Shown piece after piece: positions 12,493 to 36,534 of a stretch of 43,891 bases of DNA. Each line of letters starts with the position of its first letter. Within the stretch, counting starts at the first letter, position 1. The DNA lies in the NCBI GenBank assembly GCA_938030745.1, contig CALHIP010000006.1, positions 1-43,891 on the forward strand, given 5' to 3'. The notes beneath the pieces were generated by a model. That model was given only the letters and a program-made list of their open reading frames with translations, made no database searches and had not been told where the DNA came from. Made by a program: the position numbers and the translations under genes. Source of the stretch: an uncultured Patescibacteria group bacterium (lineage in GTDB: Bacteria > Patescibacteriota > Patescibacteriia > UBA2591 > CALHIP01).

Positions 12493-13015
12493 ATCTCCTC
12501 AGGCTATTTTCCTTTTTTTAGTAATTCTCTTGTTAGTTGATTTTTTTGTTATTGGAAAAATTGATAAACTTTCGCGTCAAAAAATTGGTTATGGCTTTAA
12601 TTATCCATTAGGAGCTAAAGAACAGCATTTACTTTATCAAAGATATGGCTGGCAAAGAATTATTTATAATTTTTCTCATTTTTTCCAATTCTGGTTATCT
12701 CCGCCACCAGGAAAAAGTTTTAAAAATCTAAATGAATTCCTTCATCTAGATATACCACCATCAACTTTAACCTTTAATATTCTCCATCTGTTTGCTTTTT
12801 TATTTTTTTCTCTAATCCTTCTTTATTTTTTTCGTTTACCTATCTGGTTAGTTTTTTTGATTGGTATTTTTTTTAATATCTTTCATGAATATGTTGCTGA
12901 AGGAATTTATATTGATCCCTCTTTTAATGATCTTTGGACTAATCTTTTAGGAATAATTTTTGGTTTACTTCTTTTTGAAATTATTCAATTACATAAATTC
13001 CGATCTAAAAAATGA
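12485..13015 (+). CDS. Membrane protein of unknown function
   Basis: Several hydrophobic helices; ATG at 12485 overlaps the prfB 3' end. Confidence 0.65.
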
Positions 13016-14502
13016 AAGAATTAGCTAAACATAAAATTTTTCTTATCTTTTGTTTGGCTTTTATTGTTGGTATTAGCCTTGCTTCTTTTTTAAAAATTTC
13101 TTTTTTTATTTGTTATCTTATTTTTCTTATTGCTTTGCTTTTCTTATTTTTTGGTTGGAAAAACATAAAAATAGTGATAATAGGTTTTTCTTTGATTTTT
13201 ATTATTTTCGGAATTTTAAGATACAATTTCAGTTTTCCTAAAAAGACACCAGAAAAAATTCATTTTTATAATAAAGAAAAAGTTGTTTTTGAAGGAATTG
13301 TTAAAAAAGTTGAAGAGAGATTTAAAATAACAGAATTGATAGTTGAAGCGAAAAGTTTGCTTTTAAATGAAAATTTTAAAAAAATCAAAGGTAAGGTTCT
13401 AGTTTTTGTTTCTTTGTATTCTTCATATCAATATGGTGATAGGTTAAAGATTAATTGTCAGCTTCTTGAACCAAGACCAATTGAAAGATTTGCCTATCAT
13501 GAATATTTAGCTCGATACGATATTTATTCAATTTGTTTTCCAAAAGAAATTAAAATTTTAAAGAGAAATCAAGGAAATTTTATTGTTAGCCAAATTTTTA
13601 AAATTAAAGAAAAAATAAAACTGGCTATTGATCAAAATTTTACCGAACCAGAAGGAGCAGTTATTTCTGCTTTGCTTTTAGGAATAAAAAAAGAAGTACC
13701 ACAGAAAATAAAAGAAGTTTTTTCAAAAACTGGTACTGGTCATATCTTAGCAGTTTCTGGTCTTCATGTTATGATTTTAACCAAAATTTTACTTATTTTT
13801 TTTATTTCTTTTTTCTCTATAAAAAGACAAAATGCTTTTTATTTAGTTTCTTTAGCCTTAATTTTTTATGTCATTTTAACCGGCGCTTCTGCTTCAGCAG
13901 TCAGGGCTGGAATTATGGGATTCTTATTAATTTTAGCTGAAAAAATTGGTCGAAAAAAAGAAAATATAAATTTGATTATTTTTACTGCTTCAATAATGCT
14001 TTTATTTAATCCAAAATTATTAAAATCTGATGCTGGTTTTCAACTCTCTTATCTTGGAATTTTGGGAATAAATTATTTAGAAGATTTTTTTTATCAAATT
14101 TTTAAATTTTTTCCTGAGAAGAAAATAAATATCCGTCGATTATTAGCCATGACTTTTTCAGCCCAAACTTTTGTTTTTCCTTTAGTTTTGTTTTATTGGG
14201 GTAATTTATCTTTAGGTGCGCCAATTGCTAATGTTTTAGTTTTAAGTATTTTATCTTATTTAATGGCTTTAAGTTTTTTGTTTGCTTTTGCTTCTTTAAT
14301 TTTCTTTCCTTTAAGTAAAATTTTATTTTTTCCTGTTTGGTTGGTTTTATATTTTATAATTAAAATTTTAGAATTTTTTTCAAAAATTCCTTTCTTCTCA
14401 ATTAATTTCGGCCAGATTAATTTTATTTTGGTCATTATTTTATATCTAGCTATTATCTATTTTATATTTATAATTAAAAAAAGACCCTCCCTTCCTATAT
14501 AA
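13012..14502 (+). CDS. comEC: ComEC/Rec2 competence protein, transmembrane portion only
   Basis: ALLLGIKKEVPQKIKEVFSKTGTGHILAVSGLHVMIL...SASAVRAGIMGFL; no metallo-beta-lactamase domain, stop codon lies inside the downstream palindrome. Confidence 0.88.
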   Translation: MKELAKHKIFLIFCLAFIVGISLASFLKISFFICYLIFLIALLFLFFGWKNIKIVIIGFSLIFIIFGILRYNFSFPKKTPEKIHFYNKEKVVFEGIVKKVEERFKITELIVEAKSLLLNENFKKIKGKVLVFVSLYSSYQYGDRLKINCQLLEPRPIERFAYHEYLARYDIYSICFPKEIKILKRNQGNFIVSQIFKIKEKIKLAIDQNFTEPEGAVISALLLGIKKEVPQKIKEVFSKTGTGHILAVSGLHVMILTKILLIFFISFFSIKRQNAFYLVSLALIFYVILTGASASAVRAGIMGFLLILAEKIGRKKENINLIIFTASIMLLFNPKLLKSDAGFQLSYLGILGINYLEDFFYQIFKFFPEKKINIRRLLAMTFSAQTFVFPLVLFYWGNLSLGAPIANVLVLSILSYLMALSFLFAFASLIFFPLSKILFFPVWLVLYFIIKILEFFSKIPFFSINFGQINFILVIILYLAIIYFIFIIKKRPSLPI

Positions 14503-14530
14503 TTTTTCACGGCCGTAAAATTTTACATAG
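14495..14530. repeat. 36-bp imperfect palindrome, copy 1
   Basis: CTATATAATTTTTCACGG|CCGTAAAATTTTACATAG; half-sites match 14/18. Confidence 0.8.
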
Positions 14531-14550
14531 TATAATATTTATGATATAAT
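14522..14550 (+). promoter_or_regulatory. Promoter of the PaaX-like gene, -35 inside the palindrome
   Basis: TTTACA (14522-14527)-N17-TATAAT (14545-14550), ATG at 14560. Confidence 0.6.
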
Positions 14551-14559
14551 TGATAGAAT

Positions 14560-15105
14560 ATGAAGAATAAACAGTCATTTAGTGAAAAATTGCTTTTGTT
14601 ATTTGCTGATTTTTTAGATGTTTTTCGTCAACCAGTCACTTTATATTCTTTTAATCGGTGGCTTGAAAAAGATCCTCGTTATCGGCCGTTTAGAATTTGG
14701 TTGGAAAAATATTTTAAGAAGAGAAAAAAACAAAATTTTTATTCAACAATTTATCAATTAAAAAGAAGTGGAAATTTAAAAATAAAAATCACTAAAGATG
14801 GAAAGGGATATATCCTTACTCCGAAAGGTGAAAGAAAAATTTTAAAAATTAAAATTAAAAATTTAAAAAAGAAACTTGATCCTCAAAAATATTGGTTAAT
14901 GGTTATTTTTGATATTCCAGAAAAAAGAAGAAAAGATAGAGACCTTTTTCGATCTCTCCTTTATAATTTAGGATTTCAAAAAATTCAACAAAGCGTTTGG
15001 GTCTCTCCTTACGATGTTTACAAAGAATTAAAAGAAGTAATTAAGAGATTGGGCATTAATCGTTATATTAAAATTCTAAAAGTTAAAGAATTAGGTGAAA
15101 TTTAA
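14560..15105 (+). CDS. PaaX-family-like protein with C-terminal Cas2-like domain
   Basis: N-terminal winged-helix-like region; C-terminal WLMVIFDIPEKRRKDRDLFRSLLYNLGFQKIQQSVWVSPYD. Confidence 0.8.
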   Translation: MKNKQSFSEKLLLLFADFLDVFRQPVTLYSFNRWLEKDPRYRPFRIWLEKYFKKRKKQNFYSTIYQLKRSGNLKIKITKDGKGYILTPKGERKILKIKIKNLKKKLDPQKYWLMVIFDIPEKRRKDRDLFRSLLYNLGFQKIQQSVWVSPYDVYKELKEVIKRLGINRYIKILKVKELGEI

Positions 15106-15106
15106 A

Positions 15107-15142
15107 CTATATAATTTTTCACGGCCGTTAAAAATTATATAG
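15107..15142. repeat. 36-bp near-perfect palindrome, copy 2
   Basis: CTATATAATTTTTCACGG|CCGTTAAAAATTATATAG; half-sites match 17/18; left half identical to copy 1. Confidence 0.85.
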
Positions 15143-36133: not shown

Positions 36134-36177
36134 CCAACTATACGATTTCGCGCGGCCGCGTAAAATCGTATAGTTGG
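36134..36177. repeat. 44-bp imperfect palindrome, third member of the family (36-bp core 36138-36173)
   Basis: CCAACTATACGATTTCGCGCGG|CCGCGTAAAATCGTATAGTTGG; half-sites match 20/22. Confidence 0.8.
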
Positions 36178-36179
36178 GG

Positions 36180-36208
36180 TTGACAAGGTATTTAAGATTT
36201 GTCAATAT
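36180..36208 (+). promoter_or_regulatory. Promoter of rplU
   Basis: TTGACA-N17-CAATAT, ATG 36217. Confidence 0.55.
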
Positions 36209-36216
36209 CTTTTATT

Positions 36217-36534
36217 ATGTTAGCAGTTATCAAAACTGGTGGAAAACAGTATCTAGTAAAAGAAGGAGATATTATTAAAATAGAAAAAATTAAAAAAGAG
36301 AAAGGAGAAGTTTTTAATTTTGATGAAATTTTGCTTTTAACTGATGAAAAAGGAGAAAAACTTGAGATAGGTCAGCCAATTTTAAAAAAAGTTAAAGTTA
36401 AAGCTGAAATTTTAGAGCAGGGGAAAGATAAAAAAATTTTGGTTGTCAAATATAAACCAAAAACTCGATATCGAAGGAAAAGAGGTTACCGTCATCCTTA
36501 TACAAAGGTAAAAATTTTAGAGATTTTACATTAA
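36217..36534 (+). CDS. rplU: Ribosomal protein bL21
   Basis: MLAVIKTGGKQYLVKEGDIIKIEK...KRGYRHPYTKVKI. Confidence 0.95.
   Translation: MLAVIKTGGKQYLVKEGDIIKIEKIKKEKGEVFNFDEILLLTDEKGEKLEIGQPILKKVKVKAEILEQGKDKKILVVKYKPKTRYRRKRGYRHPYTKVKILEILH

Follow-up and report, generated by a model that had tools for sequence, protein, structure and literature searches.

Among described systems, the REP/RAYT units are the closest counterpart of the locus analyzed here: RAYT genes are always flanked by two REPs, the palindrome sequence is partner-specific, arm changes are complementary and the distribution is patchy (PMC2817692). Architecturally, a small gene lies between two palindromes and solo copies are dispersed in intergenic gaps; the RAYT itself is an HUH/Y1 enzyme characterized by a His-hydrophobic-His motif, and the palindromes carry a GTAG head. 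Rickettsia palindromic elements are short palindromic repeats of reduced genomes, some of them in-frame inside protein-coding genes, with a length of about 150 bp and a conserved encoded peptide (PMC10969869). Two protein families complete the comparison, the PaaX repressors and the Cas2 proteins of CRISPR adaptation.

The window, a stretch of 43,891 nucleotides, belongs to the 760,600-base genome of an uncultured Patescibacteria group bacterium (G000), for which a congener (G001) is available. It contains a repeat-gene-repeat unit and a solo palindrome:

13012..14502, + strand: comEC Competence-domain ORF, a flanking gene (Pfam Competence, 5e-52), with its stop codon inside palindrome copy 1
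14495..15142, + strand: 648-bp repeat-gene-repeat unit, flanked by the comEC Competence-domain ORF and by the metallo-beta-lactamase (MBL) domain ORF, two ORFs that adjoin in relatives without the PaaX-like gene
14495..14530, no strand assigned: palindrome copy 1, 36 bp, upstream bracket of the PaaX/Cas2-like gene, overlapping the comEC-like stop codon
14560..15105, + strand: PaaX_M/Cas2-like protein, 181 aa, with an N-terminal helical (winged-helix-like) part; presumed partner of the palindromes (Pfam, TIGR, Foldseek)
15107..15142, no strand assigned: palindrome copy 2, 36 bp, downstream bracket, starting 1 bp past the PaaX/Cas2-like stop codon
15148..16038, + strand: ComEC-associated MBL-domain ORF, a flanking gene (Pfam Lactamase_B, 2e-15)
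36138..36173, no strand assigned: solo palindrome copy 3, 36 bp, between a glycosyltransferase gene and rplU
36180..36185, + strand: candidate rplU -35 (TTGACA), kept in the congener without a palindrome
36217..36534, + strand: rplU (ribosomal protein L21), a flanking gene (Pfam Ribosomal_L21p, 5e-35)

The three palindrome sequences reported in the earlier note are letter-exact at 14495-14530, 15107-15142 and 36138-36173. Their pattern occurs three times in the window and in none of 100 dinucleotide shuffles; arm complementarity is 14/18, 17/18 and 16/18 for copies 1, 2 and 3, and among 36-bp palindromes of the window copy 2 ranks best, copy 3 second and copy 1 joint-third. Counting its inverted flanks, copy 3 is 44 bp long (36134-36177), and 2 bp separate its end from TTGACA, in agreement with the earlier placement relative to the -35 of rplU; the overlap of copy 1 with a -35 of the PaaX-like gene, also claimed there, is only putative.

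The C-terminal part of the 181-aa protein matches PaaX_M (PF20803, 76.3 bits against a gathering cut-off of 24, 2e-21), and the protein scores marginally over the cut-offs of CRISPR_Cas2 (PF09827, 24.1 versus 23.8 bits, 4e-5) and TIGR01573 cas2 (29.1 versus 24.5 bits). In common with the PaaX repressors, it has the Cas2-like PaaX_M domain together with an N-terminal part for DNA binding. Unlike them, it is multi-copy and palindrome-bracketed; it is little over half as long as PaaX of E. coli (316 aa from annotated coordinates) and scores far below the cut-off of the PaaX equivalog TIGR02277 (23.5 bits versus 264.55). Foldseek returned Cas2 structures as the top matches of the modelled Cas2-like part, which alone was used, the AlphaFold model being built on two sequences and of low confidence outside residues 110-176; a structure search by sequence profile gave no significant match. 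The resemblance to CRISPR adaptation comprises a C-terminal domain that scores as Cas2 and a 36-bp, palindromic repeat, whereas Cas1 is absent from the order, the loci lack repeat-spacer arrays and the window protein carries an extra N-terminal domain. A CRISPR remnant was rejected on the Cas1 count (0 of 26 genomes of the order). Unlike the RAYTs, the protein has a Cas2-like ferredoxin fold and no Y1 model match: its Pfam matches are PaaX_M and Cas2 only, and it contains no histidine. To our knowledge, no transposase activity has been described for Cas2 or PaaX_M proteins. Plasmid matches to the protein are 27-32% identical and mostly partial, the annotated ones being PaaX regulators; a phage origin was rejected, no relatives being found among viral contigs or phage records.

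The palindrome family extends past the three copies of the window. The whole-genome scan suggested in the earlier note yields 14 copies at no more than 3 mismatches, all of them intergenic, whereas the reversed pattern yields none. The palindromic unit measures 36-40 bp and lacks the GTAG head of REPs. As in REP/RAYT systems, a small gene between two palindromes is accompanied by solo copies dispersed in intergenic gaps. Most copies lie 0-15 bp past stop codons or within genes, not at promoters.

Bracketing recurs at other PaaX-like genes. The source genome encodes three PaaX-like paralogs. Each lies between a pair of repeats of its own variant, and solo copies occur elsewhere in the genome; the window gene's two further paralogs are 73% identical. 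Both brackets of the paralog on contig C19 are CTATACTRTTTTRMGCGGCCGCTGKAAATGGTTTAG, and the brackets of the paralog on contig C4 are two identical ATAGTCTATTTTCTGCGGCCGTCCGAAAAGAG in direct orientation, a variant with four additional copies elsewhere in the genome; the two pairs differ, and each gene therefore has its own repeat variant. Within the same order, 11 of 26 genomes, representing 8 of 19 genera, have homologs, most of which are bracketed by a palindrome pair whose sequence varies from locus to locus; across the phylum, homologs occur in 120 of 380 sampled genomes, often many per genome. Using a strict bracket score of at least 48, 27 of 45 homolog loci are bracketed versus 2 of 322 control genes, both of which are PaaX genes (0 of 320 unrelated genes); the controls were drawn from three genomes within this order and therefore control for composition, not phylum-wide sampling. 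Contig ends cut 7 of the 45 loci, and six pairs added by eye (L017, L018, L033, L162, L166, L183) bring the count to about 33 of the 38 untruncated ones. In genome G006, palindromes cluster in groups of two and three, 57-69 bp apart, either side of a PaaX-like gene (L029:1315, 1372, 2133, 2202 and 2259), an arrangement that resembles a small BIME-type array; a similar tandem pair occurs at L027.

Palindrome sequence follows the protein clade, not the host species. The congener has a single homolog, 40% identical, bracketed by TCTTA...CGATCG...TAAGA palindromes; this family has 11 copies, two brackets and nine further ones, and no near-copies of the CTATA family of the source genome were found in the congener other than two CTAAATA relatives. 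In the protein tree, the three paralogs of the source genome form one clade whose nearest kin are in G007 and G008, members of another family and not of its own genus, and the congener's homolog groups with those of G013 and G017. The palindromes track this tree, the CTA-type with CGGCCG occurring in G000 and G007 and the TCTTA-type with CGATCG in G001. Genome G149, from another class, has paralogs that form their own clade and solo palindromes with the outer arms of particular paralogs; 400 kb of G007, examined as a sample, yielded no clear solo copy. Where G007 and G008 have the unit at an orthologous position, its two brackets differ between the species and agree within each. Specificity co-evolution might predict a faster-changing N-terminal part; between these two homologs that part is not faster-changing than the Cas2 part (63% versus 67%).

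Genomes were compared at 65-85% protein identity, a distance at which exact element ends are not fixed; no target-site duplication or strain-level empty site was shown with the nearest genome that far away. At the rplU junction of the congener, TTGACA is kept and the palindrome is absent. The junction at L084:14442 is about 35 bp shorter there, and the genes at L091:4211 abut with no copy; conversely, neither the palindrome that the congener has at L110:10361 nor its PaaX unit is present in G000. Of the copies that were compared with a congener, most are missing from the matching site, the rplU copy among them. Paralogs expand within lineages, and gene presence is patchy.

The only copy site common to both congeners is the end of comEC. 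Here the congener has a single palindrome (L037) at the place of window position 14495, with similar arm mismatches, and in both genomes the palindrome supplies the comEC stop codon; the palindrome at this site therefore predates the split of the two genomes. The complete unit at the comEC/MBL junction occurs in G000 only, relatives having no PaaX-like gene there, and from this comparison the gene and the second palindrome may either have been gained in G000 or lost in G001. A split comEC was rejected, as the Competence and MBL ORFs are separate neighbors throughout the order.

Congener copies also lie inside genes. In alr (alanine racemase, L105:6323-6358), the palindrome is part of an in-frame addition of 23 aa that neither G000 nor G149 has, recalling the in-frame Rickettsia palindromic elements (PMC10969869); the family differs from these in its 36-40 bp length and its partner gene, and alr is the one clear in-frame length addition found. 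In elp3 (L122:757-792) and rtcA (L122:16428-16463), a family palindrome lies inside conserved coding sequence with no extra codon and one extra codon, respectively, relative to G000. Throughout the order, the elp3 region is natural coding sequence, and G000 carries the left arm exactly (TCTTATAAATTACTGCGA) and lacks the right arm; it thus seems that the right half was altered in place in G001, which could reflect binding-site selection, conversion from another copy or arm correction. For both copies, conversion or in-place change is suggested rather than insertion, and simple insertion does not account for them.

The symmetry of the palindromes was reported earlier as a paired change at arm positions 6-7, and this holds across the 14 copies of the source genome, where own-arm complementarity exceeds mixed-arm complementarity at positions 6, 7, 13 and 15 (overall permutation p = 0.018), but not in the 11 copies of the congener (p = 0.58), which tolerate many arm mismatches. 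Among informative bracket pairs, own arms beat mixed arms in 15 of 21 (p = 0.036). Compensatory arm change is real, but the overall signal is modest because the congener's family shows no such excess. The clustering of arm mismatches near positions 12-14, likewise noticed before, is seen as a matched fraction of 0.43-0.50. Inverted flanks past 36 bp do not form a general rule: they reach significance in the 46 bracketing copies only, not in the 14 copies of the source genome (p = 0.3) or the 11 of the congener. At L024:2076, L030:1446, L169:1304 and L180:2185, these flanks are inverted repeats of 6-12 bp that differ per copy, as though one palindrome had been placed inside another or had grown outward by itself. 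The centers of the two brackets L164:1334 and L164:2059 agree in direct orientation, whereas their outer arms agree when one copy is inverted, as though the center had flipped.

Several other readings of these palindromes can be weighed against the same observations. The earlier note proposed, as one of two possibilities, operators of the PaaX-like protein, with autoregulation and control of rplU; in a fuller form, the repressor would autoregulate through the brackets and control a small regulon through the solo copies, and the cassette would spread by ordinary horizontal transfer. A PaaX_M domain with an N-terminal winged-helix-like part, symmetric sites that suit a dimer, the position of copy 1 upstream of the gene, outer arms that vary with the protein family, and elp3 and rtcA sites that appeared with no gain in length, as is possible for binding sites, are all consistent with this. 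The location of most copies away from promoters argues against it, as do the single site (comEC) common to the congener, the downstream second copy at nearly every homolog, unneeded for autoregulation, and the E. coli paaX gene, which has no such bracket. The link between palindromes and gene proved much stronger than the earlier note had guessed, copies 1 and 2 bracketing the gene and other pairs its homologs across the phylum; the idea of operators with rplU control has weak support, the congener's rplU having its TTGACA without a palindrome. Overall this reading is unlikely, and autoregulation through the bracketing copies may still occur. Terminators or mRNA 3'-end hairpins would account for the position of most copies close behind stop codons; this is extremely unlikely given that the copies sit between tightly packed co-directional genes, are paired with one protein family, and lack the stable RNA stem and U-tract of rho-independent terminators (predicted hairpins of -1 to -18 kcal/mol, mostly about -7). 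The objection to simple terminators raised earlier, that no U-tract follows, is borne out.

It is distinctly improbable that the palindromes are non-autonomous repeats moved by another transposase, such as Y1/RAYT, with the PaaX-like gene as cargo. The source genome does encode one Y1_Tnp gene (L192, G000:C33:7066-7395) and the architecture is that of REP/RAYT, but four genomes with bracketed genes, G001 (with 11 copies), G007, G008 and G017, have no Y1_Tnp; RAYT-driven repeats were rejected on this ground. No gene other than the PaaX/Cas2-like one is common to all units, and the palindromes follow its clade. The compensatory arm changes could reflect a mutational process, the template-switching correction of quasipalindromes known from E. 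coli, instead of selection or the element's own mechanism. Four striking bracket pairs (L030, L034, L177 and L178) have very different arms that are each near-perfect, and some copies have inverted flanks past 36 bp, as correction could produce; it leaves dispersal and protein pairing unexplained, however, and the congener's copies tolerate many mismatches. As an explanation in its own right it is very unlikely, although it could act alongside the main one.

A REP-like element, the second possibility raised in the earlier note, is the better fit, since the copies are dispersed, genome-specific, located after stop codons or in genes, and mostly missing at the congener's sites. Bracketing, dispersal and family-specific pairing associate the palindromes with the gene, as do the missing copies at matching sites, the patchy distribution and the expansion within lineages, and on this basis it is highly probable that palindromes and PaaX_M/Cas2-like gene form one element class. 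It is also probable, with less assurance, that this is a REP-like dispersed family whose dedicated partner is the bracketed PaaX_M/Cas2-fold protein and not an HUH tyrosine transposase. By analogy, the element would work like REP/RAYT without being a member, because the defining HUH enzyme is absent. Its architecture is convergent with REP/RAYT, and its novelty is the partner protein; the open-access papers searched contain no description that links palindromes of Patescibacteria to genes of the PaaX or Cas2-like type.

The most likely mechanism, we infer, is that the PaaX_M/Cas2-like protein itself drives dispersal. The palindrome-gene-palindrome unit (about 650 bp) would be autonomous, and the solo palindromes would be its non-autonomous products. 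The protein may bind the palindrome as a two-fold dimer, with its helical/winged-helix parts reading the outer arms, whose sequence is shared by the members of a family and varies between families, and its Cas2-like core placed over the conserved center (CGGCCG or CGATCG). This core would then nick or remodel the extruded hairpin, and the palindrome, with or without the gene, would thereby be copied into new sites. A broader proposal, which we advance tentatively, is that the PaaX_M/Cas2-fold protein is a DNA-mobilizing enzyme unrelated to HUH, DDE, serine and tyrosine recombinases and independent of Cas1, which copies short palindromes around Patescibacteria genomes, sometimes converts half-sites in place, as perhaps in the congener's elp3, and has a palindrome specificity that co-evolves with the protein.

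If this is right, Patescibacteria would harbor a widespread class of mobile elements, with homologs in about a third of the 380 sampled genomes, that has been hidden by annotation as PaaX regulators or Cas2. Such genes should then be taken neither for phenylacetate regulators nor for a sign of CRISPR. The Cas2 fold would gain a role outside CRISPR and toxins, and REP-like evolution would become open to study with an unrelated protein.
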